From: Lachnospiraceae bacterium
GTDB taxonomy: Bacteria; Bacillota; Clostridia; Lachnospirales; Lachnospiraceae
DNA: 39,430 bases
Reading direction: 5' to 3'
NCBI GenBank assembly: GCA_029068555.1
Contig: JAIECJ010000100.1
Location: forward strand, 1 to 39,430
This document shows, piece after piece, positions 6,932 to 30,916 of the stretch. The number at the start of each line of letters is the position of its first letter. Position 1 is the first letter of the stretch. Under the pieces are notes generated by a model. The model was given only the letters and a program-made list of their open reading frames with translations. It did no database searches and was not told the origin of the DNA. The position numbers were made by a program, and so were the translations under genes.

Positions 6932-9109
6932 ATGGAAGTAATCACACAGACAAACCGAACCATGCTTTTTGAGGAGATCAATCCTGAGAAGCTCAATCTC
7001 CTCACCATGATTGGGGATGCCAAGGATTTAGAGAGCCTTGACGATGACACGATAAAGGATATTCACAATAAGCTCCTTGTCAGAAATTTTGACGAATTTC
7101 TCGACAAGTTCGAGCCGGTTGTATACTCCTTTTTTAATGCTAACACGCAGAATGTGTTGTACACGTTGGAAAAACCGTCCAACATACCCGACGAGTTTAT
7201 CACGGAGATACCGCTCAACAGGCAGAACGATTTTCTGAATATGCTCTTTACGCTGATTGATACCAAGAAGGCGCAGGGAATCATGAATGTGGATTTCAAG
7301 TTTGAGAATGTGCTGGATATGATATCTCCCAAGAAGGTTATGAATGATATCAAGCAGGTTCGTAAAGAAATCAATTACCTGTATGAGAAGTATGACCAGT
7401 TGGACGATGAAGATCCCAAAAAGCGCGACCTTGGCGATAAGCTCAATGTAAAGTTTGAGGATGCCAGCAGAAATTACAATAATGTCATGGCTATGCTTCC
7501 ACTTGCCATTGAGGATATAAAGACCAGACTCCTGCTGACAGAGGGCGCTTCCAAGAAAGAAAACGAACCGTTAAAGCTTGGCGTTCTCAGCATGGGTGAA
7601 CATGGCGAACTGAAAGTGCTTGAGGCGCCCAAAAAGGAGAAAAACGAACTTTTGCTGGTGCAGCAGGAGAACAGCAAGGCAGGACTGATAGAGGCATTTG
7701 AAGACGATTACGATGCCCTCAATGAAGAACCATCGGATTATGTCAGGAGTCTTGTAGTCAGGACATTCTGCCCGCTAACCGCAGTGACGAACGACGAGAT
7801 TGACGTGGAGCTTGAGGTACAGAACTATAACTCATATCTTGAATTTTACAAGAAGTCAAAGGATGATTTTGTAAAGACAGTAAAGCCGCTTGTTGAAAAG
7901 CTTCTCGGCGTGCGCAGCTTCTTTGAGCAGTATGCGACCAAGAATAAGGGAATGGTTCCTTCAATGCTTGTCACGAACATTAAGCTTGAGATGCTTGTGA
8001 GCAGCATGAATATCGGAAGACTGCGGACATACCTGAACTCCGTCAACACAAAGACAAACTATGATAACACTGTATGGCTTGGTATTGTACCGGATATTGA
8101 ACTGGAAGGAAGCAGCGGAAAGAAGATAACCAGACAGCGCTTTAAAGGAAACGAAAAAGTGGACAAGGAGGCAGGAAATACACTCGAGTCGCTTGCCACG
8201 CTGCTTGATGTGACAAAAGATTACAAGATACAAATGTTTTACAGTTTCCGGACAGGCGAGGACACGACATTTAATTATGTGGCAACTTCGGGAATCGAGA
8301 AGTTTGTCGACAAGTCCGCACCTCTGATGAAGAAAGATTTCAGCGAGTATGTATCCTGCTGCATTCCGAATTTTACAGTCGTTCCAAAGGACAAATCAGG
8401 AGTGGAGCTGGATAAGCGCATGACAGTGTCAGCGGAGGGTGTAGTGGCGCTCTCAAAAGAAAGGGAAGATGTCTTAAAGCTTTGGATAGAAGGCGTTTAT
8501 ATCAGCGCGGCATATATTGCGGCAGGCATTGTGGCGGCATATCAGTGTCCCGACTATCTAAAGGAGTTTTTCCCGCAGGTAACCCCGAAATATCCAGGAG
8601 TCCGGTACGATATTGAGGCAAGTGACCATTCGCTGCGAACTGTGTCAACCATGGCAAAAGAGATAACAGGCTATACCAACACGATTAAGAACGCAATCAA
8701 CAACAAGGGATTTGGTTTCGTGTTTGCATCGGAGAGCAGCCAGCTTCAGGGCAGGGAGATTAAGAACATTACAGTATATAAGGCAAGGACACTTGCGCTT
8801 GTGGACGACGCTTACGATTCCCTGTATAAGACCATGGTAAGTACCTACGTGGAGAGAATCCTGCGTTACATGACAAACGACTTCAAGGTGGACAATGTGG
8901 AGAAGTTCTTCGGTAACCATCCAAAGAGCCAGAAGTCTATATGGGGTGCGGACAGAAACTTTGTAAATGCCATACTTGACAATGGTGATGAGATAGACAG
9001 CGTAATTGACGAGGTAACTAACGAGTGCAATATCCGCATCGCGTTCAATGGAAATGTCAAGAATCTCAAGGTATCCGTCACTAAGACAAGCACTGCAGGC
9101 GCGTCATAA
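6932..9109 (+). CDS. Contractile sheath protein, TssB-TssC-like fusion (main copy)
   Basis: A 725-residue protein with a purine-rich ribosome site. The N-terminal part (about 1-205) resembles the small T6SS sheath subunit TssB/VipA: NFDEFLDKFEPVVY at 52-65 matches its NF(D/E)xVM segment, and VDFKFENVLDMISPKK at 120-135 matches the conserved ...FKS(L/M)xDFxPDxV block, followed by helices. A charged linker (about 205-255) leads to a TssC-like part (about 260-725) ending in the beta segment NIRIAFNGNVKNLKVSV expected for the inter-subunit handshake. In T6SS these are two proteins that assemble as a heterodimer; here they appear fused. It is directly followed by two tube-protein genes. It is the longest of three paralogues in the window (others at 19165 and 26054). 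The assignment rests on sequence pattern only. Confidence 0.75.
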   Translation: MEVITQTNRTMLFEEINPEKLNLLTMIGDAKDLESLDDDTIKDIHNKLLVRNFDEFLDKFEPVVYSFFNANTQNVLYTLEKPSNIPDEFITEIPLNRQNDFLNMLFTLIDTKKAQGIMNVDFKFENVLDMISPKKVMNDIKQVRKEINYLYEKYDQLDDEDPKKRDLGDKLNVKFEDASRNYNNVMAMLPLAIEDIKTRLLLTEGASKKENEPLKLGVLSMGEHGELKVLEAPKKEKNELLLVQQENSKAGLIEAFEDDYDALNEEPSDYVRSLVVRTFCPLTAVTNDEIDVELEVQNYNSYLEFYKKSKDDFVKTVKPLVEKLLGVRSFFEQYATKNKGMVPSMLVTNIKLEMLVSSMNIGRLRTYLNSVNTKTNYDNTVWLGIVPDIELEGSSGKKITRQRFKGNEKVDKEAGNTLESLATLLDVTKDYKIQMFYSFRTGEDTTFNYVATSGIEKFVDKSAPLMKKDFSEYVSCCIPNFTVVPKDKSGVELDKRMTVSAEGVVALSKEREDVLKLWIEGVYISAAYIAAGIVAAYQCPDYLKEFFPQVTPKYPGVRYDIEASDHSLRTVSTMAKEITGYTNTIKNAINNKGFGFVFASESSQLQGREIKNITVYKARTLALVDDAYDSLYKTMVSTYVERILRYMTNDFKVDNVEKFFGNHPKSQKSIWGADRNFVNAILDNGDEIDSVIDEVTNECNIRIAFNGNVKNLKVSVTKTSTAGAS

Positions 9110-9208: not shown

Positions 9209-9631
9209 ATGGGATTTAAAGTATCAATTCAGGCAAAAGACACAATCGACTTGGGAATGGAAACAGTAGAATCTGTTCAGTTCTTGACAGAGACACCAAA
9301 GGACAGCAATGCCCGCTCTACAGACTTAGGTATGGGAGTGCTGGTTACAGGAAAAATCAGGGCAAACATTGCAGGTGTGGCGGATGAAACCGTAAAGCTT
9401 GCACAGTGGGCGCTTGTACCTGCGGAAGATGCAAACTGCTATGGACAGGTGACCGTGGATGTGCTTTCCGCTGGCAAGGAGGTGCGGCAGATTGTTATGG
9501 ATACCGTTTACATAGCAAACTATGCCGAGAGCTTCGAGGATGAGACCGGAGTGGGTACATTCAAGCTGCTTCTCAAGCAGAAAAAGGACAAGAACAACAC
9601 CGTACAGTACCAGGGCGGCTTCGCATTTTAA
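9209..9631 (+). CDS. Hcp-like tube protein 1
   Basis: A 140-residue protein behind a strong AAGGAGG site. It is a compact beta-rich protein: an N-terminal strand (GFKVSIQ), a central helix KLAQWALV, and a closing strand pair VYIANYAESFEDETG...FKLLLKQKK. This pattern and length match the Hcp/TssD tube family, including the divergent Bacteroidetes TssD (YVVDYSENF... near the end). Hexameric rings of such proteins stack into the inner tube propelled by the sheath. The paralogue at 9657 is 25 bases downstream, and the sheath gene is immediately upstream. Confidence 0.8.
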   Translation: MGFKVSIQAKDTIDLGMETVESVQFLTETPKDSNARSTDLGMGVLVTGKIRANIAGVADETVKLAQWALVPAEDANCYGQVTVDVLSAGKEVRQIVMDTVYIANYAESFEDETGVGTFKLLLKQKKDKNNTVQYQGGFAF

Positions 9632-9656: not shown

Positions 9657-10070
9657 GTGGGATTTATTTTAAACGTTGAAGGAACAGAGTTAGGAGTGGA
9701 AACCATTCAGACAGTAAAGTTTGCTGTGGACACACCCGACGGAACCAATGCAAAGACAACCGATGTGGCAGTGACAGCTACCATCAGGGGAAAAATACTT
9801 ACCATGCTTGACGAGGGCTCAGAGGCATCTATGGATCTGGCAAAGTGGGCAATGGTAACCTCGGATAATGCAGACTGCTACAGAAATGTCACCATAAAGT
9901 CATTAGCGGCAGGGCAGGTAGTAAGGGAGTATACCTTTACAAAGGCATTTGTCATTGACTACAAGGAAGACTATGACGACAAGGAAGGCATCGGTACATT
10001 CACGCTTATCATCAGACAGAAGAAGGATAAGATTAAGGATGCTACAGTTACCGGAGGATATGCAGGCTGA
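9657..10070 (+). CDS. Hcp-like tube protein 2
   Basis: A 137-residue paralogue of the preceding gene. It starts with GTG at 9657 behind a perfect AAGGAGGA, which decides the start. It shares the MGF start, the helix DLAKWAMV (against KLAQWALV), and the closing FVIDYKEDYDDKEGIGTFTL segment (against YIANYAESFEDETGVGTFKL). It belongs to the same Hcp/tube family. Two or more different tube proteins are usual in Afp/PVC-type particles, where one forms the bulk tube and the other joins the spike; whether this split holds here is inference. A strong hairpin (10085-10132) follows. Confidence 0.78.
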   Translation: MGFILNVEGTELGVETIQTVKFAVDTPDGTNAKTTDVAVTATIRGKILTMLDEGSEASMDLAKWAMVTSDNADCYRNVTIKSLAAGQVVREYTFTKAFVIDYKEDYDDKEGIGTFTLIIRQKKDKIKDATVTGGYAG

Positions 10071-10151: not shown

Positions 10152-10820
10152 ATGGGAAAAAAATTTATAACGTGTTATATTACAAGCCTTTTGGAGGCAG
10201 CTTCGTGGGGTGTGGCAGGAGCCCTTTTATTACGAGTATTTCAGCTTAATGTGTCAATGACCGTAAAAGTAGTGTCAGTCGTATTTCTGGCACTGTGCCT
10301 GTTTGTGGGAGAAGGTATCTTCTGCTTTGTACAGGTGATTGGAAGAGAGGGGCAGCAGGCAGCAAAGGACACAGGCGGCGATATTATAAAACCAGGAGAG
10401 GAAACTGGCAAAAGCGGTGCCAGTGAACCGGCAAAAGCGGACAGTCCGGCAAAAACGGACAGTGCGGACAGCAGCAGAAAAAAAGTCACAAGCCTTGTAC
10501 TGCTGAATGAGCAGGGAAGCGTACTGCTCGAGTGGAGCCTTCAGAGCAAGACAGCGCTCATCATTGGAAAGAGCAATGGAAAGGACAATGTGGATGTTGA
10601 TTTGTCCGGCTCTGCGGTTGCGGACATGGTATCCAAGCAGCACGCTGTGCTTAACTACACGGATAACGGATGGTATATCGACGATATTGATTCCAAGAAC
10701 GGTACAAGGGTCAAGAAAAAGTATCAGAGCGCACTTCTGGACGTGAAGCTCGTGGGTGCTGTGGAGGTCGAGGCAGGTGACATTATATATATAGCGAATG
10801 CAATGCTGCAGATCAGGTAA
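10152..10820 (+). CDS. Membrane FHA-domain protein
   Basis: A 222-residue protein. Two membrane helices (about 10-30 and 38-62) are followed by a low-complexity linker of KAD/KTDS repeats (about 90-108) and a C-terminal FHA domain (112-222). The FHA loops read IGK (138-140), SKQH (161-164) and SKNGT (181-185), so the arginine that commonly contacts phosphothreonine is lysine, as in the FHA protein at 2786. It should display a phosphopeptide-binding domain on the inner membrane face and could tie phosphorylated partners, such as the TxxL-repeat protein or kinase, to the membrane. It sits between the tube genes and the next FHA gene. Confidence 0.8.
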   Translation: MGKKFITCYITSLLEAASWGVAGALLLRVFQLNVSMTVKVVSVVFLALCLFVGEGIFCFVQVIGREGQQAAKDTGGDIIKPGEETGKSGASEPAKADSPAKTDSADSSRKKVTSLVLLNEQGSVLLEWSLQSKTALIIGKSNGKDNVDVDLSGSAVADMVSKQHAVLNYTDNGWYIDDIDSKNGTRVKKKYQSALLDVKLVGAVEVEAGDIIYIANAMLQIR

Positions 10821-10853
10821 CACACTGCAATGCATTGGAGATGGAGGTAAATC

Positions 10854-11387
10854 ATGGGATTAAACCGTTGTAAAAATGGGCATATGTTCAGTGCCAGAAA
10901 ATATGGGGATACCTGTCCCTACTGCAACACAAATCTTGAGTTCAACACAAACATGATGAACAACAAAAGGCTGATGCTGGACGATCCGGATAAGACAGTG
11001 TCTGTATCAGGCGTGACCGATACTATAGATCCGGTTACAGGCTGGCTCGTGTGCATAGAGGGACCGCAGTACGGTAAGGATTTCAAGATACACGCTGGCA
11101 AGAATTTTATCGGGCGTGCCGATAACATGCACATTCAGATTCTCGAGGACAATACTGTATCGCGCATTAACCATGCCGCCATAAGCTACGACGGAAAGAA
11201 CAGGCAGACATATCTGCTGCCAGGCGACTCGTCGGGACTTGCGTATGTGAACGGCGAGGCAGTGTACACGCCCGTTGCACTTGAGGCGTTTTCCATAGTG
11301 GAAGTCGGAAAAAGCAAGTTTATTTTTATGCCGTTGTGTGGGGAACATTTTGAATGGAATGACGGCAATCCGACTACAGAGCAGTAA
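10854..11387 (+). CDS. Zinc-ribbon FHA-domain protein
   Basis: A 177-residue soluble protein behind GGAGATGGAGG. The N-terminus has a small zinc ribbon (C6, H10, C21, C24). The FHA domain covers about 62-170: IGR (86-88) is intact, the second loop is SRINH (103-107) with one extra residue, and the third loop is GDSSGLAYVNGE in place of STNGTFVNG. It is the third FHA protein of the cluster and the only one with the canonical GR. It ends 11 bases before the PP2C phosphatase gene. It is likely a phosphothreonine reader of the control circuit. Confidence 0.82.
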   Translation: MGLNRCKNGHMFSARKYGDTCPYCNTNLEFNTNMMNNKRLMLDDPDKTVSVSGVTDTIDPVTGWLVCIEGPQYGKDFKIHAGKNFIGRADNMHIQILEDNTVSRINHAAISYDGKNRQTYLLPGDSSGLAYVNGEAVYTPVALEAFSIVEVGKSKFIFMPLCGEHFEWNDGNPTTEQ

Positions 11388-11398
11388 AGGAGACAGAC

Positions 11399-12238
11399 AT
11401 GATACAGACAGCACTTATCGCTGCGGCGGTAATCATTTTTATCGTGCTCGTGGCATGTATAGGAATCCGCTACCTGTCAGAGCACAGGCATATCTATAAA
11501 AACAGCAGGATCAGACTTGACATAGGAAACGCGCAGATTATAGGGAACCGGGAAAAGCAGGATGACTCGTTTGGCACCAGCCTGCGCCCTTACGCAGCAT
11601 TTGCCATTGTCGCAGATGGTATCGGAGGCTATCAGGATGGAAAGCTTGCAAGTGAGATTGCAGTAGCTACCTATATTGATGAGTTCGAGAAAAGGGATAT
11701 CACGGAAAACATAACTTATTTTTTCCAGAAGTCCGCTGTGATGGCAAACGGTCATATCCGTGATGAATTTGGAGAGATAAAAGGAGGCACCACACAGGTG
11801 TCTATTGTCATTGTTGAGGACAGGATGTATTGGTCGTCGGTCGGAGACAGCAACATTGCGGTGCTGCGAAATGGGCGGCTGATAGAGGTCAACCGCAAGG
11901 AGAATGTAAAGAACTGGCTTGAGGATCAGTATTATGCAGGAATGATAGGCAGGGAGGAGGCGATGGGAAGCGCCACGGACAAGCGTCTCGTCAACTACCT
12001 CGGCTTTGACGGCTTCAAGAAAGCGTGCGAGTCCGACCGCCCTATCTATCTCAAGAAGCACGACAAGGTACTGCTGTATTCCGACGGAGTGGAGCTTTTA
12101 GGACAGATAGAGCTTGAGAACATATTGGCAAAACGCTGCGGCGCCCAGAAACAGGCGGATCTTATTATGGAATCACTTGAGCGGAACCCGGCAAGGAATA
12201 AAGATAATGCGACGATTATTATATTGACGGTGATGTGA
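11399..12238 (+). CDS. Membrane PP2C-type protein phosphatase (PppA/PrpC class)
   Basis: A 279-residue protein with an N-terminal membrane helix (about 4-25) and a cytoplasmic PP2C domain (about 38-279). All metal-binding motifs are present: KQDD (54-57), VADGIGG (71-77), SVGDSN (147-152), YSDGVE (227-232) and KDNAT (268-272). PP2C enzymes use Mn/Mg to remove phosphate from Ser/Thr, so this is the expected counterpart of the two kinases. The gene follows the zinc-ribbon FHA gene with a GGAGACAG ribosome site. It is the last core gene before the first AT-rich island. Confidence 0.9.
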   Translation: MIQTALIAAAVIIFIVLVACIGIRYLSEHRHIYKNSRIRLDIGNAQIIGNREKQDDSFGTSLRPYAAFAIVADGIGGYQDGKLASEIAVATYIDEFEKRDITENITYFFQKSAVMANGHIRDEFGEIKGGTTQVSIVIVEDRMYWSSVGDSNIAVLRNGRLIEVNRKENVKNWLEDQYYAGMIGREEAMGSATDKRLVNYLGFDGFKKACESDRPIYLKKHDKVLLYSDGVELLGQIELENILAKRCGAQKQADLIMESLERNPARNKDNATIIILTVM

Positions 12239-12972: not shown

Positions 12973-12986
12973 GGAAAAGGAGAAAA

Positions 12987-13076
12987 ATGGGATTCATTTC
13001 AGGTAATGAAGGTAGCCATACTTGTTATTATGGTAGAGGAATCAAGGTGATATATGGAACGAAGAAAGGGGGATAA
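12987..13076 (+). CDS. Very small ORF, possible RHS/toxin scrap
   Basis: A 29-codon frame (MGFISGNEGSHTCYYGRGIK...) with an excellent AAGGAAAAGGAG ribosome site. The segment THR-CYS-TYR-TYR-GLY...ILE-LYS-VAL recurs in translation at 22182 in the second island, which suggests both are remnants of one larger coding region. It may be translated, but I see no function. It lies between the toxin fragment and the small membrane protein gene. Confidence 0.3.
   Translation: MGFISGNEGSHTCYYGRGIKVIYGTKKGG
13020..13034 (+). repeat. Scar repeat shared by both islands, copy 1
   Basis: ACTTGTTATTATGGT is identical at 22182-22196, and the match continues imperfectly into GAATCAAGGT / GAATCATCAAGGT. In each island it is followed by a gene of the same small membrane protein family (13085; 22300). 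Confidence 0.6.
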
Positions 13077-13084
13077 ATAAGAGG

Positions 13085-13609: not shown

Positions 13610-13640
13610 AAGATAGTAGTAGAGCACTAAGAAGAAAAAT

Positions 13641-14363: not shown

Positions 14364-16328
14364 ATGCGCAAGGAAAATGCATCATTTAAGACAAAGTTCA
14401 TATCGGAGTCCGGAAGTTATCTGATCAACTCAGATTATTTTGCGTTCGTGGAGCTGAAGGATTATGCGTGCTACTGTATCGCGGACGGCATAGACAACGA
14501 CCAGCATGCGGAGAGTGCCAAGATGGCGGTCACGGAGCTGATTACAGCCTTCACGGAAAATCCCGGCATGTCCAAGGGAAAGTGTAAAAAGTATCTGAAT
14601 ATTGCCCACAAAGTGCTGCTGAAAGAGTCAAAGGAAATCCGGCTCGAGGTGAGCATGGTGGTCGTGCTGACCGATTACAAGAAATTCCGCTATGCCCATG
14701 CCGGAAATGCAAGGCTTATCGCCATCCGGAACGGTAATATTAAGTACCGCACCAAGGACACGTCACTCAGCCAGCGGATGGCGGACAATGAGGAAATCCC
14801 TATTGATCAGGTTGCAGGCCATGAGGAGCGTCATAACCTTTACAGCTATCTGGGACAGCCCGGAAGGTTTTCTCCGGTATTTTCCAAGAAGAAAAAGCTC
14901 GAGGACGGCGACATTATCTGCCTGCTGACCAGAGGAATCTGGGAATCAGTCGGGGATGCGGAAATACTCGATTCCATAGACGGTGCATCCGAGCCGGAGA
15001 CGGTATGTACCAATATGGAGGACATCGTGCTGAGCCATCAGCGCACCCTGCTTGAGAATTACACCATTGCCACCGTGTTTGTGGACAAGGTTTACAATAA
15101 TCCCAAGGCGGGCAAAATCAAGAAAGTTGTGAAGATTATCTCTACAGTGCTGGTAACCGTATTTATGATTTGCTTTGCAATATTTTTCATGAAATACCGG
15201 ACAAACAAAAGGAATGCCGAGCAGATGCTTACCCTGAAGGAGCGGGGAATTACATACCTGAACGAACTCAATTACGCCGCGGCTGACGGTCAGTTTGACG
15301 AGGCGGTGGAACTTGCGGACAAGATAAAGGCTGGGAAAAATTCCAAGATGAACACCGCAAAACAGACCGTGCTTGTGTATGATGCTGTGTCGGGCTACCT
15401 GACCGAGGCAGAGCAGGCAGTCTCCGAGGGCGAGTACAAAAAGGCGGCGAATAAGTACAGCGCCGCGCTTGGGAAATCGGAGGAATTAAAGAACGAGTAC
15501 GGTGAAAATACCGATTATGATAAGGCGATAGGAACATATAAAACATATGCAGAGAACATGAGGGATGGAACAGAGGCATTGTCAGCATACAATTACGATG
15601 CCGCCTCCGAGACGTTTGAAGCTGCAGCCAAGGCAGCAGACAGTATTGATGATACTGCAAAGAGGGATGTGGCAAATGACAACTTAAGGACAGTCAACGG
15701 GGAAAAAGCGATGCTTGACGCTGCATCATTTGAAAGCTCTGGACAGGCACTCATGGATCAGAAACTCTATGTACAGGCAAAGACAGAGTATCAGACAGCG
15801 CTGGAGCTATACCAGCTTGCCAAGGAAAACTACAATGTAGCAAACGCAGACAGCAGGATTTCACTGGTCAACATCAAACTTGACAACATAGAAGAAAATA
15901 TCAAGAAACAGACCACGCAGGAACTCGAAGCCGAGGCGGACAGCTATATCCAGAAAGGCAACGAGGCGCAGCACAGCGGCAAATTCGACGAGGCGGCGGA
16001 GTACTTTGCCACAGCAAAGCAAATCTATGCGCAGACTGGAAATGTAAGCCAGGCGATGAACGCAGGCTCCAAGCAGGAGGGCGCCCAGTACGGACCCGAC
16101 CAGCAGCAGGCTCTCCAGAGCGTCCTTGACGGAATGTCCTATATGGCATGCGGGGACTACGAGTCGGCAATTGACGAATTGAGCAATGCAAGGGATGCGT
16201 ACAATAATTTGGGAGATACGTCCAGCGCAACGGCAGTAGGGAACACAATCACTTCTCTGCAGCAGCTTCAGAAGGCGCTGTACAGTGAGGATAACACAGT
16301 GACAGACCCCGTGGATGTGACCAATTAA
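14364..16328 (+). CDS. Degenerate PP2C-like protein with membrane helix and TPR-like domain
   Basis: A 654-residue protein. Residues 1-240 have the PP2C fold: CIADGID (38-44) keeps the aspartate of the VADG motif and YAHAGNARL (110-118) replaces VGDSR. But the late metal sites are lost: LLTRGIW (188-193) stands where SDG is expected, and ENYTIATV (231-238) where DNxT is expected. A membrane helix (about 255-277) is followed by an external helical region (about 285-654) with TPR-like repeats (AADGQFDEAVELA; AAEYFATAKQIY; SAIDELSNARDAY). The layout mirrors the kinase at 545. It is probably a weak phosphatase or a pseudo-phosphatase that binds phosphoproteins. The following gene is the Hsp70-like ATPase. 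Confidence 0.75.
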   Translation: MRKENASFKTKFISESGSYLINSDYFAFVELKDYACYCIADGIDNDQHAESAKMAVTELITAFTENPGMSKGKCKKYLNIAHKVLLKESKEIRLEVSMVVVLTDYKKFRYAHAGNARLIAIRNGNIKYRTKDTSLSQRMADNEEIPIDQVAGHEERHNLYSYLGQPGRFSPVFSKKKKLEDGDIICLLTRGIWESVGDAEILDSIDGASEPETVCTNMEDIVLSHQRTLLENYTIATVFVDKVYNNPKAGKIKKVVKIISTVLVTVFMICFAIFFMKYRTNKRNAEQMLTLKERGITYLNELNYAAADGQFDEAVELADKIKAGKNSKMNTAKQTVLVYDAVSGYLTEAEQAVSEGEYKKAANKYSAALGKSEELKNEYGENTDYDKAIGTYKTYAENMRDGTEALSAYNYDAASETFEAAAKAADSIDDTAKRDVANDNLRTVNGEKAMLDAASFESSGQALMDQKLYVQAKTEYQTALELYQLAKENYNVANADSRISLVNIKLDNIEENIKKQTTQELEAEADSYIQKGNEAQHSGKFDEAAEYFATAKQIYAQTGNVSQAMNAGSKQEGAQYGPDQQQALQSVLDGMSYMACGDYESAIDELSNARDAYNNLGDTSSATAVGNTITSLQQLQKALYSEDNTVTDPVDVTN

Positions 16329-16398: not shown

Positions 16399-16440
16399 TT
16401 GAGTACACCAGACACACAAAAACAGAAAAGAGGAGTTTTC

Positions 16441-19134
16441 ATGCCAAACAAACCGTCATACACATTACATTTGGACAACAGTCCGGTAAAGACCTACAGC
16501 AACACCTACAGGAGGAAAAACCTTGAGGAGATGACGACCTACCAGCTGCGCGACATCTGCACCAAGGAAAAGATTATCAAGGGCATCACTGACCCGCTCA
16601 ACAGGTATGAATTAATTGAGACCATACTCCGATACAGGGGCGAGCGGGAGGCGCTGCTCATCCGGCGCGAGACGGAGGGCGGCATGGACAGGCTGTCTAA
16701 TCTGCTGTTCCGGAAGATGGGGGCGTGCTTGCGGGACGAGGGAACCATCCACAACCCGGCAAGACTCGTCCTCTACAACGGGCTTGACCTCTCGCTGTAT
16801 GACAAGTATCAGGTAGGCATCGACAGGAGCAAACGAAACGACATCAGCAAGGTCGTCATAAACCACCTTGTGGAGTCCAATGTGCTGCTTGTCGGCGAGG
16901 ACAACGGAATCTGTACGATTTTGAATCTCGTAAGCGACGGTGCGGATCCAGAGGGATTTTTCCTTGAGAGGGACGGTTCACAGCCAATCAGGTTAAGCGA
17001 CCACAAGGCATACTATCTGATGTTTTTTGAAAAAAAAGAATCGGACATCCTCTATCGTGTCTACTATGATATCGACCAGAAACCGCTTGTCAGCCTCAAC
17101 TATTACCGCATACCGCTCGTAGACCTTGAAATCCGCGAGGTTGAAGACACGGACGCCATCCTGTCCATTGACTTTGGCACCACCAATACCACCGCAGGCA
17201 CATACCTTGACTACGGTTACATACAGAACCATGACAACAATGACCTCTTGAACCACCGCGTACAGCTTGACGCCGTCAATGAGGTCTACTTTTTAAATAA
17301 TGTCAAAAATGAGAAGAAATGGGTGCCGATGCTCCCGACCGTCGCGTGCGTGGCGGATTGCAGCGACAGGGACAACATTATATACCACTTCGGCTACGAG
17401 GCAAAAAAAGATACCCGCGTGAAATACTATGATGAGTCTTTCAGCATCTTCTATGAGATGAAACGATGGGTCGGGAGCTATGACCAGCTGCAGGAGGTTA
17501 CGGACAAGGAGGGGCATATCGCAAAGGTGGTCAGGGGAACCATCATCAGGGAGTATCTCCTGTATGTCATCAGGTGTGCCGAGCAGCGTTTCAAATGCCG
17601 GTTCAAAATACTCCACCTGACAAGCCCCGTAAAGCTCAAGCAGCAGTTTAACAGGATGTTCACGGAACTTCTTCCCGAGTATGAGATTGATGCGGTGCAC
17701 ATGCTTGACGAGGGGACAGCAGTCATTTATAACTCCATAAGCAGCCTGATTGAAAAGCAGCGGTATGAGGACGGCGCATTATATTCCGCGCTGATTATAG
17801 ACTGCGGGGGCGGCACGACAGACCTGTGTTCCAGCCAATTTACCATCAGCAATGACAGCGTGGCATACCGCGTGGACATAGAGACAACCTATGAGAATGG
17901 CGATACCAATTTCGGAGGCGACAACATCACGTACCGCATCATGCAGTATATCAAGATCATGTTTGCCAATTATTACAGCAAAAAGGAAATGGTGCACATT
18001 GATGACCTGATTACCGTGGCGAGCGAGGATATTTTCCGCTATGTGGACGAATTCGGAAAAGACGAGGTTTATGGGAAGCTCAACGAGGCATATGACGCGG
18101 CGGAGAAAATCATTCCCACGCGCTTTAAGCAGTACGAAAACCATACGAGGGACGAGTACTACATGGTTAAGAATAATTTCTACTTCCTGTTCGAGATAGC
18201 GGACAAGATGAAGAAGAAGTTCTATGCAAGCGAGGGAATTGTCAGGAACCGCTTCCAGTCAAATTATGAGAAGGAGGACGAGGACCTGCGCATCACCCGC
18301 ATAGACCGCTGGAACCTTGTGGTGTGTGAGAATGGGCAGCTTGTATACAACCACACCTTTCCGGATGTGGTATTCAACATCAAGGAAATCGAGCTTCTGC
18401 TGAAGGCGGACATATACAGCATTATCAACAAGTTCCTGCTGGAATTCTACACGAACAGGACACTGGACGCTTACTCCATGATTAAGCTGACGGGACAATC
18501 CTGCCGCATAGACATATTCAGGGAGGCGTTAAAGGAATTTGTGCCCGGAAAGAGCATCGAGTTCAAGCAGCAGACCAGGGATAACAGCAAAAACAGTATC
18601 ATAGAGTTGAAGCTTGCATGTGTCAGGGGGGCAATCCAGTACGTAAATGCCAAGAAGCTTGGCTTTGCCGACGTGAACCTGCGCTACACCATGCCCGCCA
18701 TCCCATACTCCATCAGCGGCATGACCCACGACGGCCACGAGGTAATGCTAATCTACAGCCTTGACCGCCAGCAGACTTACGGGCACCTGTCCAGAAACAG
18801 GAACATTGCTCACCTGGAACTGATGCTCAAGGACGGGGACGGCATCCTGAAATACCGTTATTCCTACCACAACAGGAAAGAACAGTACAGGAAGAAGACG
18901 TATGAGGAAATCGTGGAGAAATATGACAAATATACCGAGTGCCTGCCGCAGGATGAGATGGACATCATAGAGGATGACGAGGTAAAGTTCTTCGTATTTG
19001 CGGCAAAGGACCAGTGGGGATTTTTCCTCGTGCCCATCATGCGTACTGACTCCGAGCTGTATCTTGGCTGCGACCAGTTCTTTGCGTTTGAGAATGAGAA
19101 GTGGGAGATGAGCTTTTTTGACGGGACGAAGTAG
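16441..19134 (+). CDS. Large Hsp70/actin-fold ATPase with SAP-like N-terminus
   Basis: An 897-residue protein; ATG 16441 is placed behind AGAGGAG, rather than the upstream TTG 16399 inside the hairpin arm. Residues 28-66 form a SAP-like helix-extended-helix segment (TTYQLRDICTKEKI...ELIETILRYRG). The ATPase part has phosphate-1 loop IDFGTTNTTAG (243-253) and phosphate-2 loop IDCGGGTTDL (453-462), typical of Hsp70 and actin-fold proteins. Spacing between these loops is larger than in DnaK, and the standard substrate domain is not evident. The next gene is a sheath paralogue and a J-domain protein lies upstream in the cluster. I infer a dedicated chaperone-like ATPase for particle assembly or recycling. 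No ClpV is present in the window. Confidence 0.8.
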   Translation: MPNKPSYTLHLDNSPVKTYSNTYRRKNLEEMTTYQLRDICTKEKIIKGITDPLNRYELIETILRYRGEREALLIRRETEGGMDRLSNLLFRKMGACLRDEGTIHNPARLVLYNGLDLSLYDKYQVGIDRSKRNDISKVVINHLVESNVLLVGEDNGICTILNLVSDGADPEGFFLERDGSQPIRLSDHKAYYLMFFEKKESDILYRVYYDIDQKPLVSLNYYRIPLVDLEIREVEDTDAILSIDFGTTNTTAGTYLDYGYIQNHDNNDLLNHRVQLDAVNEVYFLNNVKNEKKWVPMLPTVACVADCSDRDNIIYHFGYEAKKDTRVKYYDESFSIFYEMKRWVGSYDQLQEVTDKEGHIAKVVRGTIIREYLLYVIRCAEQRFKCRFKILHLTSPVKLKQQFNRMFTELLPEYEIDAVHMLDEGTAVIYNSISSLIEKQRYEDGALYSALIIDCGGGTTDLCSSQFTISNDSVAYRVDIETTYENGDTNFGGDNITYRIMQYIKIMFANYYSKKEMVHIDDLITVASEDIFRYVDEFGKDEVYGKLNEAYDAAEKIIPTRFKQYENHTRDEYYMVKNNFYFLFEIADKMKKKFYASEGIVRNRFQSNYEKEDEDLRITRIDRWNLVVCENGQLVYNHTFPDVVFNIKEIELLLKADIYSIINKFLLEFYTNRTLDAYSMIKLTGQSCRIDIFREALKEFVPGKSIEFKQQTRDNSKNSIIELKLACVRGAIQYVNAKKLGFADVNLRYTMPAIPYSISGMTHDGHEVMLIYSLDRQQTYGHLSRNRNIAHLELMLKDGDGILKYRYSYHNRKEQYRKKTYEEIVEKYDKYTECLPQDEMDIIEDDEVKFFVFAAKDQWGFFLVPIMRTDSELYLGCDQFFAFENEKWEMSFFDGTK

Positions 19135-19164
19135 CAGGGGATGCAAGGGAGAGAAAGGATAAAG

Positions 19165-21189
19165 ATGGAACAGACGAACAGAACGATTTTATTTGAGGAG
19201 TTGAATCCGGAAAAAGTAAATTTATTGAGTTTTATTACAAATGACACTGTAGAGGGTGTCAGTGATGATGAACTGGCGGAGATGCATAGTATCCTTGAAG
19301 TAAGTTCCTTTGAAGACGCCTTGGAAAAGTTTCAGCCTGTGTTATATATTGCGATGGATGCGGTGCAAAAGAAGGCACTATGCACAAAAAGAATGGCAGC
19401 GGCTGAAACCTTCAGGGAAATAATCCCTGTAAGGTTTGACAGGACAAATAAATTACTGCAATTATTTACATGTACATTGTCAAAGATGAAAGGTAAAGGT
19501 GTGATGTGCTCTGCCAAAAATATAGCACATACAATGTTTTCCTTGCCGGATTCCAGGGAATTTAAGAAGAACGCAAATAAAGTAATCAGATATATCATCA
19601 GTGAGAAAGATGATGATGCAGAAAAAGAATTGCGGCGCATGCTAAGTGTATACGATAATAGTATTTTTTTAATTCAGATCTTTATTGCTGAGATGCAGAA
19701 GCTGTATGAAAATGATAACATGCAGAGTGATGATAAGGTAATTGTATTGGAGGACAAGGAGGAAATGCAGGTTCGTGTATTACGGTGTTCGGAGTACTTT
19801 TATCTTTGTAATATGAAGCTGGGTGAGGAAGACAAAAGAAAAGTAAACCAGTTTATTGAAAAATTTATAACGGTTGGGACAGTATATAATCCTGAAATAT
19901 GGAAAACGCTGTTTTGTGTGTTTGAAGAAGATACAGACCAGCATCTTCTGAAATTATATGAGGAATACACTGCATTCTATAAGGAAATCATTACAGAATT
20001 TTGGAGTAAATGCTCTGATTTGCTGGAGACACTGCTGGGAATCTATGCATTTTTTAACCAGTATGATGCGCAGGAAAAAATAATGCCACCTAAGCTGGTT
20101 GTTGCCAACTTATTGCCCGAGTCAATCATTGACATCCGAAACCGCAGGAAACTGTTTACCTATCTGACAAGCACGAACCAGAAAAGTTATCAGGAAACTG
20201 TTATTTGGTATGCAGTGATTCCCAGACTGAAGTGGGGTGACGTGAATGATTCCGAGAACATAAGGGAACGATTTGCGGGAAATGACAAACAGGTGGAAAA
20301 AGACAGTAATAGCGTACGAAGTGTGCATGTCCTGGCAAACATCCTTGCAGAGTATCAGATACAGTCATTTATCTGTCCGGTAATAACGGATAAGGCGACA
20401 AACCGCTATATGGCGGTAAAAGGGATAGAGGAATGGACTTCTTACCAGACGAATTATGCAGACAGGGAGCATGCGAAATATATATACCCGTGTATCCCAA
20501 ACTTTACGCTGATTCCTGCGGAGCATGCTGCGATTGATATTGCAAAAAAGCTTTCCATTTCTGAATGGGGAGAAGTCAGTGTAAGCGAGACAGTTATAAA
20601 AGTATGGTTAAAGACAATTGGAATTGGGGCCGCATATGTGGCGGCAGGCTTGCTTGCGGCGTGTCAATGTCCAGGCTACTTAAAAATGCATCATAAACAA
20701 AATGTGAATGATAAGATACCAGGAGTGGGATATAAAATACTGTCCAACAATTATGCACAAAAGACATATGCATCATTGAAAATGGATATTTTACGATATG
20801 AGACAGAGGTTATGGAAATTTTGGAAAGAAGAAAATCAGGTATCATATTTATGCCATACATAGATGGTTCAACAGTATTCTCAGATTACGCTGCCTCACG
20901 GCTATATGGGCAAAAGGATACCTTTTCAGACATACAGACATTAACATACATGGAAAGAAAAATACGGTATGAGACACAGGATTTCAAAAGCGAACTTATC
21001 AAACAATTTTTCCAAAACCGGCTAGGGAGCATAAGACAAAGCTGGTCAGAGAATATCAATATGGTAAATGGATTACTTAAAAAAGGTGAGCGTTTAGCGT
21101 TTTCGATAGATGAAAAAAATGGAAAATGTACTTTTGAGGTTTCTTTTGAAGAAAATAAAAAACAACAGGTTGTGAAACTGAATCAGTAA
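19165..21189 (+). CDS. Contractile sheath paralogue 2 (TssB-TssC-like fusion)
   Basis: A 674-residue paralogue of the protein at 6932. I place the start at ATG 19165, behind AGGGAGAGAAAGG, because it lines up the conserved EQTNRTILFEELNPEK start with the other copies; ATG 19141 would add eight residues. The TssB-like segment SFEDALEKFQPVLY is at 48-61, and the segment AAYVAAGLLAACQCPGYL near 490 matches AAYIAAGIVAAYQCPDYL of copy 1. It is shorter mainly in the linker. It is likely a minor sheath or baseplate-proximal sheath protein, as Afp/PVC particles carry three sheath paralogues. It heads a small group with the genes at 21216 and 22006. Confidence 0.72.
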   Translation: MEQTNRTILFEELNPEKVNLLSFITNDTVEGVSDDELAEMHSILEVSSFEDALEKFQPVLYIAMDAVQKKALCTKRMAAAETFREIIPVRFDRTNKLLQLFTCTLSKMKGKGVMCSAKNIAHTMFSLPDSREFKKNANKVIRYIISEKDDDAEKELRRMLSVYDNSIFLIQIFIAEMQKLYENDNMQSDDKVIVLEDKEEMQVRVLRCSEYFYLCNMKLGEEDKRKVNQFIEKFITVGTVYNPEIWKTLFCVFEEDTDQHLLKLYEEYTAFYKEIITEFWSKCSDLLETLLGIYAFFNQYDAQEKIMPPKLVVANLLPESIIDIRNRRKLFTYLTSTNQKSYQETVIWYAVIPRLKWGDVNDSENIRERFAGNDKQVEKDSNSVRSVHVLANILAEYQIQSFICPVITDKATNRYMAVKGIEEWTSYQTNYADREHAKYIYPCIPNFTLIPAEHAAIDIAKKLSISEWGEVSVSETVIKVWLKTIGIGAAYVAAGLLAACQCPGYLKMHHKQNVNDKIPGVGYKILSNNYAQKTYASLKMDILRYETEVMEILERRKSGIIFMPYIDGSTVFSDYAASRLYGQKDTFSDIQTLTYMERKIRYETQDFKSELIKQFFQNRLGSIRQSWSENINMVNGLLKKGERLAFSIDEKNGKCTFEVSFEENKKQQVVKLNQ

Positions 21190-22836: not shown

Positions 22837-22852
22837 CCGGAATGGAGGGAAC

Positions 22853-23377: not shown

Positions 23378-23386
23378 GGAAAGAGT

Positions 23387-26053: not shown

Positions 26054-28090
26054 ATGATACAGACTAACAGGACGCTCCTTGTGGAGGAGCTTGAGCCAAA
26101 CAGGGAAAATATTGTGTCCATCGTAAGATACGTAGAGAACCGGGAAAGCTTCTCAGATGAGGAAATTGCCGAAATACACAGTCATCTCGAGGTGTCCTCT
26201 TTTGAGGAGGTTATAGAGAAATTTTCGCCGCGGATATATGTGTCGCTTGATACGGACCAAATGAAAGCCGATTTTTACAGAAAGCTGCCTGAAAAAGCAC
26301 AGACATCATATCAGGAGGTTCCAATATGCGGGAGCATGGCTTTTTTTGATGAGCTGGTAACCCTGATGGAGAATAAGAGAAAGCGCAGATATGTCCTCAC
26401 ATCCTTTCAAAATTTTGGCGACAGGCTTCTTCCGTCTAAGGAACCAGACGGTTTCTGGCGGCTGCGCGAAAAAATATTGAGGACAGTATGCGCAGACAGA
26501 ATACAGTCAGCAACAGAACTGATGGACGGTCTGATGCGTGAATATGATGATAGCATATTTCTTGTAAAAACATTTCTAAAGGAAACATACCAATATATAC
26601 AGGAGGCAGCGGCTGGAAATGACAATCTGTGTTTTGTCATTGAGGACAGTGAGGATGTGGAGGTTCATACAATGTCTGTCTCCAGCCATTTTGAACATAA
26701 TTACTGCCATACCGAAAAGGAAGAAGATCAATATTTTGCATTCTTAAGCAGTTATTTTAACCAAAATAAGCCCAAGAACAAAAATCTCATGGTGTTGTGT
26801 ATGGAGCTGTTCTGCAAACCCAAAAGGAAAAATCTTGAGCTCCTTGAAAAATTTTATCGGGAATATCTTGAGTATTATATCAGTCTGCTGCATGGCTTCT
26901 GGTGGGAGGCAAAGCCCCTTATCGAAACGATGCTTGGAATCAGAAGTTTTTTCGGGAATTATACGCCGGCAGAAGGGGCGATGCCGCCGAAACTGGTAAT
27001 AACCAACTGCACACCAGAGTTGTTGTTGGATAACCGCTATAAAGAGACGTTCCGGCTCTATATGGAAACCGTTAATGAGAAGAACCATGTGGACGGCGCC
27101 ATATGGTATGCGATCATTCCAAGACTCCCATATGCAGGCGGAACCAAAGAGAATATCAGGGAACGTTTTTTATCAACAGCGAAAGATGATCACATATATC
27201 CGGTAAACCGGGCGGAAGGAGTGCAGGTAGTGCTGGATATACTTGGAAGGTATCAGGTACAGACATTTTTAAGCGTTATGGCGCGAAATGACACAACATT
27301 TCATTCTGTGCGGGAAAAGGGAATTGACAGTTTTGAGGAATCATTTCAGTTTTTAAACAGCTCCGAAAACAGGGAGTATATCATTCCATGTTATCCGAAT
27401 TTTACAATTATACCACAGGAATATACCCTGATGATGCCTGGGAGAAAGACAAGCTATGATGCGCTAGAAAACAGGATATATCTGGGCGGCGAACGAAAGA
27501 TGTGGATGGATGAACTGATTGTGGAGGCTTCTTATGTTGGTGCAGGTCTTGTGGCGGCATGCCAGTGCCCATCCTATCTGACAGAGCATTATGGTAGCAG
27601 AAGGGTTCAGGAGGGAATGCCGGGTGTTGCTTACAGACTGTGTGGGGAAAGGCATAATGCACAGACAAAAACGAAAATGTTTGGGGAAGTAGTCAGTTAT
27701 AGTGATGAAATCTATAACCAGATAGAACGGTATGGAAAAGGTATTATATTTGCCCCATACAGGGGACGTGTGGTTGCCCTTACGGACAGGGCACATTCTT
27801 ATAAGTCGAGTACGCCTGACAATATTGCGATTATTCAGACACTTACATATATCGAGCGGGTGATCAGGTATGAGACACAGGATTACAAGGAGCATCTGAT
27901 AAAGGACTTTTTCCAGGAACGTCCCGGAAGCATCATAGTGCGCTGGAAACAGGCAGCAGAATGTGTGAATGGAATGCTCAAAAAAGAAGAAGGACTCAGA
28001 TATTATATAGACAGCGAGGGCGCGACATGTCGATTCGAGCTGAAACTGAACGAGCGGAAAATGGATGATACGGTGCGTATCAGCAGATAG
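26054..28090 (+). CDS. Contractile sheath paralogue 3 (TssB-TssC-like fusion)
   Basis: A 678-residue third member of the sheath family, start ATG 26054 behind AAAGGAGTGAG. It shares IQTNRTLLVEELEP at the start, the TssB-like SFEEVIEKFSPRIY at 49-62, and SYVGAGLVAACQCPSYL near 490. It is closer in length and overall pattern to copy 2 (19165) than to copy 1. It begins the distal structural block, with baseplate-candidate, spike and effector genes downstream. It is probably a specialised sheath ring near the baseplate or an end cap; which of these cannot be told from sequence. Confidence 0.72.
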   Translation: MIQTNRTLLVEELEPNRENIVSIVRYVENRESFSDEEIAEIHSHLEVSSFEEVIEKFSPRIYVSLDTDQMKADFYRKLPEKAQTSYQEVPICGSMAFFDELVTLMENKRKRRYVLTSFQNFGDRLLPSKEPDGFWRLREKILRTVCADRIQSATELMDGLMREYDDSIFLVKTFLKETYQYIQEAAAGNDNLCFVIEDSEDVEVHTMSVSSHFEHNYCHTEKEEDQYFAFLSSYFNQNKPKNKNLMVLCMELFCKPKRKNLELLEKFYREYLEYYISLLHGFWWEAKPLIETMLGIRSFFGNYTPAEGAMPPKLVITNCTPELLLDNRYKETFRLYMETVNEKNHVDGAIWYAIIPRLPYAGGTKENIRERFLSTAKDDHIYPVNRAEGVQVVLDILGRYQVQTFLSVMARNDTTFHSVREKGIDSFEESFQFLNSSENREYIIPCYPNFTIIPQEYTLMMPGRKTSYDALENRIYLGGERKMWMDELIVEASYVGAGLVAACQCPSYLTEHYGSRRVQEGMPGVAYRLCGERHNAQTKTKMFGEVVSYSDEIYNQIERYGKGIIFAPYRGRVVALTDRAHSYKSSTPDNIAIIQTLTYIERVIRYETQDYKEHLIKDFFQERPGSIIVRWKQAAECVNGMLKKEEGLRYYIDSEGATCRFELKLNERKMDDTVRISR

Positions 28091-28114
28091 TGAAACGAAA
28101 GATTGGGGAACAAT

Positions 28115-29380
28115 ATGGCAATGAGATTTTTTGAGGATGGATTTGATTACAAAAAATATATAGACGAACGCCTGCTTGAAATAGATGACCTTGAGAAAAG
28201 GAGTCAGCTCAGGAATGTTATGGGTGATATGCTGCTGCCTTTTTATGAGCATATAGAGGAAAGCTACCGGAATATAGAAGACAGGATGTTCACAGCCCAG
28301 AATGAGAATCAGGGAAGCTTTCAGATTGTCACAGGCATTGAGGAAAGAGGTAAAATAGATGTCACTGACACCACCATGGTTCCGATGCGCATGGAGGATA
28401 TGGAGGAAAAGAAAATTCCGGTGGAAGAACTCCTCTCGGCGCTTGAACATGAAAAAAGCTACCGGCTCTGTACGGTATTTGTCAATGCGGATTACAGCGT
28501 TATACGCGATATAGAGCAGGCAGACAGAAAGTACAGGGCGGAGATCATAACAGATTACGGTGAATATCCTGCGTCAGTGAAGCTCAGGAGAAATCGTGAG
28601 TATATGGACATTATAAAAAAGCTGTATCAGGAATTTCTCAATAATGGGATAGAGTGGAATACAGTGTGCGCCCCGTATCTTCACAAAATATTTGATGTGG
28701 AGGCTGTATCGGCAGAGTGCAGTGATGAGGAACAGATACAGGAGATAAAGGTATATTTCGAGGAATATGAGCCTTACATCAGATATCATTATGTACCTCT
28801 TTGGAATATCAGGAGTGTTATTGCAAGGACGAGTGCATACCCTTCTTTCTGTCTTGACAGGATACATTATGAGCACTGTATCTATGGCAATAAGCTCAGG
28901 CAGACAAGTGATTATATGGTGGCAGGCAGCAAAAGATTGTGGAGTATACATCGGTCTGGCGGGGATTTATATATACAGTGTGACGAGGAACAGTCAGTAA
29001 ACTGGGAGCTGCGTGAATTTGGGCATGAACCGGTTACAAGGCAATACGCACTGCCGCTGATGAAAAATACAGGGAGCACAGCAAAAAGACAGATACGGAC
29101 AGTGGCAGAAGCAAAATATTATGTAGAGCATTTGGGATGTGGGGAATATATCAGTCTGGTCGACATTAATCAGAAACCACATACGCAGAAAGAAGAGACA
29201 TATGACTGTGATGATTTTATAATAGACGAAATACGAAAGTCTTCGCAAAGTCCGGCATTGTATTTTGAATTTTCGGCTATAGACAAAGCTTCTATACTTA
29301 CCAGGGACATTATGAGCTATGCAGTAAGCAGGCTGCAGCTCATATATCCCGAATACAACTGTAAAGGAATACTTGTGTAA
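28115..29380 (+). CDS. Baseplate-candidate protein (421 aa)
   Basis: ATG 28115 follows GGGGAA; the TTG at 28103 is a poorer choice. The N-terminal 57 residues (FFEDGFDYKKYIDERLLEID...) are a helical block also present as the stump at 22006. The middle and C-terminal parts mix helices and strands; no family is recognised. By position between a sheath gene and the spike gene it would correspond to a wedge component such as TssF/Afp11, but I see no specific motif for those. It lies 24 bases after the sheath gene. Confidence 0.6.
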   Translation: MAMRFFEDGFDYKKYIDERLLEIDDLEKRSQLRNVMGDMLLPFYEHIEESYRNIEDRMFTAQNENQGSFQIVTGIEERGKIDVTDTTMVPMRMEDMEEKKIPVEELLSALEHEKSYRLCTVFVNADYSVIRDIEQADRKYRAEIITDYGEYPASVKLRRNREYMDIIKKLYQEFLNNGIEWNTVCAPYLHKIFDVEAVSAECSDEEQIQEIKVYFEEYEPYIRYHYVPLWNIRSVIARTSAYPSFCLDRIHYEHCIYGNKLRQTSDYMVAGSKRLWSIHRSGGDLYIQCDEEQSVNWELREFGHEPVTRQYALPLMKNTGSTAKRQIRTVAEAKYYVEHLGCGEYISLVDINQKPHTQKEETYDCDDFIIDEIRKSSQSPALYFEFSAIDKASILTRDIMSYAVSRLQLIYPEYNCKGILV

Positions 29381-29407
29381 ATAAATATAAGAAAGGCAGG
29401 AGGTATG

Positions 29408-30079
29408 ATGGAGGATATATGGAACAGGATTATAAAGGATCAGGCAACGGTTCGATACAGTCAGTCAGATTTTTTTTCACCATACTGTGAGTCCGTGATC
29501 GGAAGCATAAAAAAGCAGCCTGATGGGACAGACCGCATAACGATGAATACATTTTATCGTTACGACGATATCTTTCTCTTGCTGTTTGAGCAAAATGATA
29601 TTGAGGAATACATCAGGGACTGGATTTTAGACGGTATGATGCATCTGCTGGCAAGGCTTGAACTGAGAAATGGCACAGACAGTCATGAATATGCACTCCG
29701 AAGTGTATGGCAGGACGTTGTTGGGGGCAGATACGGCATCAGGCTGATGCAGCTTTTTGAGGGGCTGACAGACAGCAAGCGTTATCTTGCCACACATCTG
29801 TTGATACAGCAGATGCGATGTGGGGAAAGTACAGAGCTTTTTGCGCATGCGCTCACAAGCATCACGGAGGATGGTGTTGTGTATAAAAGCGAGAAGAATC
29901 CCAAGGAGCTTATGCTTTACATGGGAAAAGAGGAAAATGAACAGAATCAGATTGAGATTGAATTTGCCAAGGAAGCATACATGCCCTTTGATTATAGCCT
30001 GAGAGTATTTTGGAATCATTCTTTTGGAATCATGGAGGATGACAGGTGTATGCAGATTGGCAGTATAGAAATTTATTAG
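29408..30079 (+). CDS. Baseplate-candidate protein (223 aa)
   Basis: I prefer ATG 29408, four bases after AGGAGG, to ATG 29405, which abuts it. The protein is soluble, with FFSPYCESVIGSI near the start and a helical centre (WILDGMMHLLARLEL). No family is recognised. It sits between two other baseplate-candidate genes in tight succession (spacing 24-27 bases). A small wedge protein such as TssG is one idea by position alone. Confidence 0.55.
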   Translation: MEDIWNRIIKDQATVRYSQSDFFSPYCESVIGSIKKQPDGTDRITMNTFYRYDDIFLLLFEQNDIEEYIRDWILDGMMHLLARLELRNGTDSHEYALRSVWQDVVGGRYGIRLMQLFEGLTDSKRYLATHLLIQQMRCGESTELFAHALTSITEDGVVYKSEKNPKELMLYMGKEENEQNQIEIEFAKEAYMPFDYSLRVFWNHSFGIMEDDRCMQIGSIEIY

Positions 30080-30100
30080 GAATTTGTAAGGAGGATGCAT

Positions 30101-30877: not shown

Positions 30878-30916
30878 GGAATGATAAGGGATGAGGAAGG
30901 GGGATTTCAGAATAAT

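Follow-up and report, generated by a model that had tools for sequence, protein, structure and literature searches.

A probable single-chain sheath of type VI secretion type, with TssB-like and TssC-like parts, in a gene cluster of Bacillota

The gene at positions 6932–9109 of the plus strand in a 39,430-nucleotide stretch of DNA from a Lachnospiraceae bacterium (contig JAIECJ010000100.1; the window) probably encodes, as judged from sequence and predicted structure, a single-chain sheath of type VI secretion system (T6SS) type belonging to an injection machine of Bacillota. T6SSs are mostly described as Gram-negative systems, and their sheath as being built of two proteins. No earlier description of the sheath or of its operon was found in the open-licence literature. 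A sequence-only reading of the window had proposed a fusion of TssB and TssC (VipA and VipB). Of this proposal the single-chain sheath of T6SS type stands as probable, from the predicted fold, two TssB-type sequence blocks and searches that found no separate TssB gene; kinship to TssC in sequence did not emerge. The chain may have arisen by fusion, and may be the intermediate which that reading proposed, or it may be of ancient single-chain descent, with TssB and TssC separating from it later. The gene, its parts and its two paralogues are as follows.

6932..9109, plus strand: predicted contractile sheath protein, a single chain of 725 aa (open reading frame, AlphaFold2 model, PDB and BFVD matches, relatives)
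6932..7546, plus strand: putative TssB-related part, residues 1–205, with blocks 1 and 2 and a helical region (TssB profile tests, invariant columns, secondary structure)
7085..7111, plus strand: block 1, NFDEFLDKF, residues 52–60, on TssB 'dNFD..m..m.P' (best diagonal; query 51, TssB 65)
7289..7330, plus strand: block 2, VDFKFENVLDMISP, residues 120–133, on TssB 'VDL.FESMDDFSP' (second best diagonal; query 116, TssB 90)
7328..7372, plus strand: residues 133–147, with P133 and then V136, I140, V143 and I147, in the spacing of TssB Pro103/Val106/Ile110/Leu113/Leu117
7547..7804, plus strand: linker and helices of low confidence that separate the TssB-like part from the core, residues 206–291 (pLDDT below 50 at residues 204–250 and 282–289)
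7805..9085, plus strand: sheath core expected to match TssC/VipB, residues 292–718, with a long helix, a sheet and C-terminal strands (from the model, with an inferred boundary)
about 19141..21189, plus strand: paralogue B of the sheath (28% identity), in which block 1 is retained and block 2 degenerate (alignment)
26054..28090, plus strand: paralogue C of the sheath (29% identity), in which block 1 is retained and block 2 degenerate (alignment)

The reading frame is intact in the window's list of open reading frames (725 codons from an ATG), has a purine-rich GGAAG stretch 5' of its start and sits within a long run of plus-strand genes. Twenty-two relatives align with it over their full length at 61–79% identity, and a frameshift or assembly artefact was rejected because full-length relatives occur in many species. 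A pattern scan of genome contigs matched 376 stretches, of which 269 encode a relative; the best 80 of these served as the loci for neighbour counts, and their source taxa are, as judged by organism names, all Bacillota. With its own genome counted, the family is present in 12 of the 398 genomes sampled from the phylum and in 9 of the 391 sampled from the class. The gene thus belongs to a conserved Bacillota family and is no oddity of one genome, a point that the sequence-only reading had missed. Relatives are known from named, isolated strains.

Searches by tblastn returned no relatives among 50,697 phage records or 72,556 plasmids, and one scan of IMG/VR viral contigs gave 48 pattern matches and 0 relatives. 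Pfam (up to E 0.1), NCBIfam and PHROGs hold no family match for the protein, and PDB sequences gave five chance-level matches, the best at E 0.12. When 47 members were compared with Pfam up to E 1, TssB and TssC were absent among the families listed; T6SS_TssG matched five of the 47, at best with E 0.22, and was judged a chance match. The host genome carries three sheath-family copies, all of them inside the window; paralogues B and C lie downstream of 6932–9109 and had escaped the earlier reading, and tblastn found no relatives of paralogue C in plasmids. Phage_sheath_1 (PF04984) matches two genes elsewhere in the host genome and none on the window. A prophage or tailocin gene was rejected, since phage relatives were not found and PF04984 is silent on the sheath.

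The full-length protein was modelled by AlphaFold2 from 47 sequences, with a pTM of 0.77 and a mean pLDDT of 73.9. In a Foldseek search of the PDB with this model, VipB (5myu) ranks first (E 1.2e-3, probability 1.00), two P1 sheath entries follow at ranks 2 and 3 (each with probability 1.00), and an unrelated protein takes rank 4 with a probability of 0.14. The alignment with the 430-residue VipB chain spans 495 columns at a low TM-score (0.29 by query, 0.45 by target), and the PDB E-values are modest, none falling below 0.001. In BFVD, ranks 1–5 have E-values from 1.5e-5 to 2.8e-3; the first is an uncharacterised phage protein, ranks 2–4 are named tail sheaths and rank 5 is without a name. 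Judged by this model, the 725-aa protein very likely has the contractile sheath core fold. The sequence-only reading had called it a sheath protein, and the whole-chain prediction bears this out, with VipB first in the PDB and tail sheaths in BFVD. The fold alone is not specific to T6SSs, because VipB and phage sheaths fit the model equally well, the latter with better E-values in BFVD.

Along the model the elements run in the order strand, NFD helix, strand, SP helix, helical region, long helix (292–332) and core, which would correspond to the TssB and then the TssC elements of the Pseudomonas aeruginosa sheath. In that sheath, as described in excerpts of PMC5807055, TssB supplies the N-terminal handshake strand, contributes two of the strands in the central sheet and has a helix that bundles with the N-terminal helices of TssC. 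When residues 1–210 were modelled alone, AlphaFold2 returned a poor, uninformative model (pTM 0.41) with no TssB match, a result that does not count against a TssB fold.

Two segments of TssB type had been pointed out in the N-terminal 200 or so residues, and profile comparison confirmed them at residues 52–60 and 120–133. The TssB alignment consists of 12 plasmid records, 11 annotated as tssB and one as 'type VI secretion protein'; of the 13 loci gathered for it, one without annotation (L106) was excluded. Among all ungapped profile diagonals of the 721 x 171 comparison, blocks 1 and 2 score best and second best, and they stand in the same order as in TssB. The collinear two-block score, a statistic devised after the blocks had been seen, although the earlier reading had named them beforehand, is 35.3 for TssB and at most 29.3 for 418 overlapping decoy windows (209 forward and 209 reversed), a z of about 6.4; the best decoy is the C-terminal window of a phage-sheath group.

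HHalign sets residues 50–64 of the sheath on TssB 66–80, and when forced it lays residues 1–215 collinearly on TssB, interrupted by one main insertion some 30 residues long. Against TssB, the N-terminal 250 residues outscore all of 200 column shuffles and the whole chain outscores 199 of 200, and with a deeper alignment of the sheath family the score exceeds 299 of 300; split in two, the block-1 part lies above 300 of 300 shuffles and the block-2 part above 299 of 300. The pairwise HHalign probability is low, at 1–15%. A phage-sheath group of two sequences reaches a single-hit score of 23.7 against the N-terminal 250 residues, where TssB reaches 23.6, and a two-block score of 25.3, where TssB reaches 35.3. 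A profile search of the N-terminal part had been suggested as a check: the block scores rise above decoys and shuffles, but a match to the Pfam TssB family is not among the results.

A TssB HMM was also run over 9,840 open reading frames from 104 stretches (the window and 103 loci). Sheath reading frames, told by position and length, make up nine of the ten best matches there, the best at E 0.21, although the sheath-family members of these stretches are mutually dependent. Among 655 further reading frames, the only two sheath genes present take ranks 1 and 2 (E 0.34 and 0.41); taken singly, these E-values of sheath genes are not significant. Held-out real TssB proteins reach 96–123 bits with the same HMM (E 1e-27 or better), so the kinship between sheath and TssB is remote. 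Compared with 15 families of the operon, the TssB profile gives its top score, 22.9, to the sheath, and the next is 19.0. Taken as sequence evidence, the TssB signal of residues 1–205 is weak but specific.

Conservation within the family falls in the same places. Across 41 non-redundant members, F53 is kept in 39 and F60, P62 and P133 in 40 each, and the N-terminal part opens with an invariant QTNR..L..E..P, which would be the handshake strand. Block 2 runs into a candidate TssB-type helix at residues 133–147. In TssB the helix that binds TssC carries Pro103, Val106, Ile110, Leu113 and Leu117, and in enteroaggregative Escherichia coli binding requires Ile-110 and Leu-117 (excerpts of PMC3840085). 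P133 is followed by a hydrophobic residue at all four corresponding places in 30 of the 41 members. The other 11 comprise four paralogues of the B or C type, the member that has diverged most (L094) and a further six, which keep P133 and positions 136, 140 and 147 and differ solely at 143 (S in five, E in one); paralogues B and C and L094 are without block 2 or its helix spacing.

The remainder of the chain had been read as TssC-like, and here the two kinds of search part company: fold searches place VipB first, but in sequence there is no TssC signal. HHalign of the TssC-like part with TssC scored 17.4 against a shuffle mean of 17.7, and 17.3 against 16.9 on repeat; the C-terminal part gave no HHalign signal with TssC, the P1 sheath or any of four phage-sheath groups; and no sheath reading frame stands among the listed best matches of a TssC HMM over the 104 stretches and eight more. 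The lack of a TssC signal says little, because the P1 sheath itself gives none with TssC. Phage-sheath groups are likewise uneven under HHalign: PhA and PhC match at 99.8%, but PhA does not detect PhB, or PhB PhA.

A separate TssB gene was sought in the host genome and in related loci. Pfam T6SS_VipA (PF05591) gave no match in the host genome, with an E. coli control positive, and neither the 104 stretches nor the eight further ones yielded such a gene. Beyond the sheath genes, matches of the TssB HMM are at noise level, at E 0.42 and worse in the 104 stretches (a 240-aa reading frame of locus L118 giving the 0.42) and at E 2.5 and worse in the other eight.

The sheath gene stands among genes for other parts of an injection machine. 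Counts in the following list refer to the 80 loci, several of which end early at contig ends.

545..6882, plus strand: upstream regulatory genes, for a kinase (545), an FHA protein (2786), a vWA protein (4373) and a kinase (5995) (Pfam)
9209..9631, plus strand: first copy of the tube protein, called Hcp-like from its resemblance to copy 2 (matched in 79 of 80)
9657..10070, plus strand: tube protein copy 2, Pfam TssD (PF17642, over the cut-off), with Hcp1 6bdc at E 0.013 (79 of 80)
10152..12238, plus strand: FHA protein (10152), FHA-like protein (10854, so called from a sub-threshold Yop-YscD match) and PP2C phosphatase (11399) (each in 79 of 80)
14364..16328, plus strand: PP2C-type phosphatase with TPR repeats (79 of 80)
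16399..19134, plus strand: ATPase of Hsp70/actin fold, 911 aa, part of the cluster core (weak DnaK/MamK matches; 73 of 80)
28103..30079, plus strand: two conserved proteins of 425 and 224 aa (28103, 29405) (73 and 72 of 80)
30095..31558, plus strand: two conserved proteins of 260 and 225 aa without a family match (Pfam, gene order)
31536..32927, plus strand: VgrG-like spike with Phage_GPD (PF05954) and Phage_base_V (Pfam; HHalign to T6SS VgrG 89%)
34524..35996, plus strand: PAAR-like tip of the DUF4280 family with a C-terminal extension (PF14107, E 2.3e-18)

An Hcp-type tube (PF17642), a VgrG spike (PF05954) and a PAAR-like tip (DUF4280) are all present at the locus. The two tube copies match each other's relatives, and several relatives of the locus have a single tube gene. 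The ATPase carries putative nucleotide-binding motifs, and its fold assignment comes from these together with the weak DnaK and MamK matches. The proteins encoded at 28103 and 29405 gave no convincing match to Pfam, the PDB or T6SS profiles, and from their position one might guess that they are baseplate proteins. When 14 operon families were compared with T6SS parts by HHalign, only VgrG was firmly identified (89%); a 17% match of the Hsp70-like ATPase to Hcp was judged to be chance.

VgrG is matched in four and DUF4280 in three of the 80 loci. Because most flanks stop before that part of the cluster, six other genomes were followed downstream. In four of them (L134, L136, L138, L139) the gene order is conserved from the tube to DUF4280: tube, FHA, FHA-like, PP2C, PP2C-TPR, 28103, 29405, ATPase, 30095, VgrG, DUF4280, with some small genes unmatched. 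L140 has VgrG and DUF4280, while 28103, 29405 and the ATPase are absent from its stretch; L141 shows the first part of the order only. Neither TssL/DotU (PF09850) nor TssK (PF05936) was found in the host genome. A Pfam scan of 28 of the 33 listed reading frames of the window (all but those at 2230, 13085, 22799, 23387 and 25509) gave no match to ClpV, gp25, TssE/F/G, Baseplate J, TssJ or TssM, positions 1–544 and 36,000–39,430 being covered by the listing of reading frames only.

A working model can be drawn from these parts. One 725-aa chain would do the work of both TssB and TssC of the Gram-negative T6SS. Its N-terminal 205 or so residues would be the TssB equivalent (handshake strand, NFD block, strand, and an 'SP' helix docking on the TssC side) and residues of about 292–718 the TssC-like sheath core, the two parts being joined where the C-terminal helix of TssB meets the N-terminal helices of TssC, on what is the outside of a T6SS sheath. 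The chain may assemble by itself on the Hcp-like tube (9209, 9657) and be kept in an extended state, until a signal gated by the kinase, FHA and PP2C set causes the sheath to contract. Contraction would expel the tube from the cell together with VgrG (31536) and the DUF4280 tip (34524). The Hsp70-like ATPase (16399) could stand in for ClpV, and paralogues B and C might serve as alternative or end-of-sheath subunits.

The protein could instead be an ordinary single-chain sheath of phage or eCIS descent that was recruited to the cluster, with TssB-like blocks that are convergent or due to chance and nothing fused. In favour of this, phage sheaths consist of one chain and agree well with the model, the sheath has no sequence link to TssC, one phage-sheath group equals TssB on the single-hit HHalign score, and another supplies the best two-block decoy. 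On that two-block score, however, TssB stands at 35.3 and no decoy, phage sheaths included, exceeds 29.3; the TssB helix spacing is kept in 30 of 41 members; Phage_sheath_1 matches two other loci of the genome and not the window; and no relative turned up in the 50,697 phage records, the 72,556 plasmids or the IMG/VR scan. We regard such a descent as unlikely.

A different possibility is that the sheath core is T6SS-like and depends on a second, small subunit that has diverged strongly and is encoded nearby, such as the 224-aa product of 29405, so that the sheath is not truly single-chain. The operon does contain several conserved small genes without an assigned function, and sequence searches are weak here. 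Both TssB blocks, however, already lie on the 725-aa chain, all 14 other operon families score below the sheath with the TssB profile (19.0 at most, next to 22.9), and the best matches of the TssB HMM beyond the sheath genes are at noise level, which makes a separate subunit very improbable.

The cluster quite possibly represents a class of type VI-like machine of its own within Bacillota, found in many species of Paenibacillus, Brevibacillus, Lysinibacillus, Clostridium and Lachnospiraceae. In such a machine TssB and TssC would form one chain, an Hsp70-like ATPase would replace ClpV, and a Gram-positive envelope would be served without TssJLM (of which TssL/DotU was checked across the genome); the chain may keep the ancestral state before the split into two subunits. 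A single-chain TssB–TssC, if true, is a testable link from phage and eCIS sheaths to the T6SS sheath.

Several known systems invite comparison. The sheath resembles TssB/TssC of the T6SS in having VipB as its best PDB match and TssB blocks with the spacing of the TssC-binding helix at its N-terminus, and its neighbours (a TssD-type tube, VgrG, a PAAR-like tip, FHA, kinase and PP2C genes) are those of a T6SS. It differs in being one chain, in having no Pfam T6SS match and in its occurrence in Bacillota, as well as in a host genome where DotU and TssK were not found and in scanned window genes without ClpV. With the sheaths of phages, R-tailocins and eCISs (Phage_sheath_1) it shares the single chain and, by prediction, the core fold; unlike them, it is not matched by PF04984, has a TssB-like N-terminal part and is surrounded by T6SS-type phosphorylation genes, and the scanned window genes include no gp25 or Baseplate J. 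The haloarchaeal T6SS-mode CIS is likewise a contact-dependent machine outside the Gram-negatives with a one-protein sheath, Cis2; the best structural match of that protein is Streptomyces Cis2, and a TssB part is not mentioned in the excerpts, 'tssb' occurring 0 times in the text (PMC11566945).

In the literature as excerpted, phage sheaths have been modelled and T6SS sheaths treated as two proteins that are structurally near the sheaths of giant phages (PMC9230969), and firmicutes have been tabulated among T6SS carriers, against a strict Gram-negative-only view (PMC3482391); a term search of PMC5014421 gave no mention of Gram-positives. Other CISs are described in parts of PMC11566945, PMC8213781, PMC12210884 and PMC4122934. 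The Firmicutes mentions in the available portions of PMC12210884 and PMC4122934 concern clusters of eCIS type, which in the latter contain gp25, VgrG and Baseplate J.

The closest precedent is an 'unknown phage-like translocation system' of Firmicutes, inferred in 2021 beside PAAR_H2 and Phage_GPD genes (PMC8651086, in excerpt), after the same possibility of Gram-positive phage-like translocation had been raised in 2016 (PMC5349215). The locus around 6932–9109 fits that system: both have a Phage_GPD VgrG near a DUF4280 gene, in Bacillota, with no canonical T6SS or eCIS genes recognised. In the text consulted, the two papers argue from PAAR-like and Phage_GPD genes only, to which the locus described here adds a sheath, tubes, an ATPase and regulators; it thereby offers candidates for the sheath, the tube, the ATPase and the regulatory set of the inferred Gram-positive translocation machine.

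Two diverged paralogues of the sheath protein, 28–29% identical to it, are encoded in the window, and two ordinary Phage_sheath_1 genes lie outside it in the host genome (G000):

19141-21189, sheath paralogue
26054-28090, sheath paralogue
G000:C5:15939-16376, Phage_sheath_1 gene
G000:C37:42154-42609, Phage_sheath_1 gene

Both window paralogues have retained block 1 of the TssB-like N-terminal segments but not block 2. One paralogue each is also found, within the flank examined, in the Lachnospiraceae loci L001 and L005, which carry sheath relatives; another genome bearing the family, G713, has two sheath genes near each other.

Smaller genes are also present within the operon:

12352-14252 and 22288-26012, nine small genes

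None of the nine has a match in the relatives' 80 sheath loci (the best 80 of 269), and three of them (13085, 22288 and 22799) resemble one another by eye. They could represent cargo- or immunity-type insertions.

Further downstream is the gene for the PAAR-like tip:

34524-35996, DUF4280 tip protein

Beside DUF4280, the sole family named by Pfam, this product has a linker rich in Gly and Ser and, at its C-terminus, a possible cargo domain in which the stretch IGGSCIAAFNLMRVLG resembles, by eye only, a cysteine-peptidase-like module. In three other genomes the DUF4280 gene is followed by a second, longer VgrG-like ORF:

L134:1787-4660
L136:1831-4764
L139:15604-19899, running off the stretch end

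These remain open for ~960–1,430 codons and possibly encode a spike bearing an extension.

Another gene of the operon encodes a putative ATPase:

16399-19134, Hsp70/actin-type protein, 911 aa

It carries nucleotide-binding motifs of this type, is 48–72% identical to five aligned relatives, and is matched in 73 of the 80 sheath loci (again the best 80 of 269). This protein may have taken over the role of ClpV, the recycling ATPase of T6SS.
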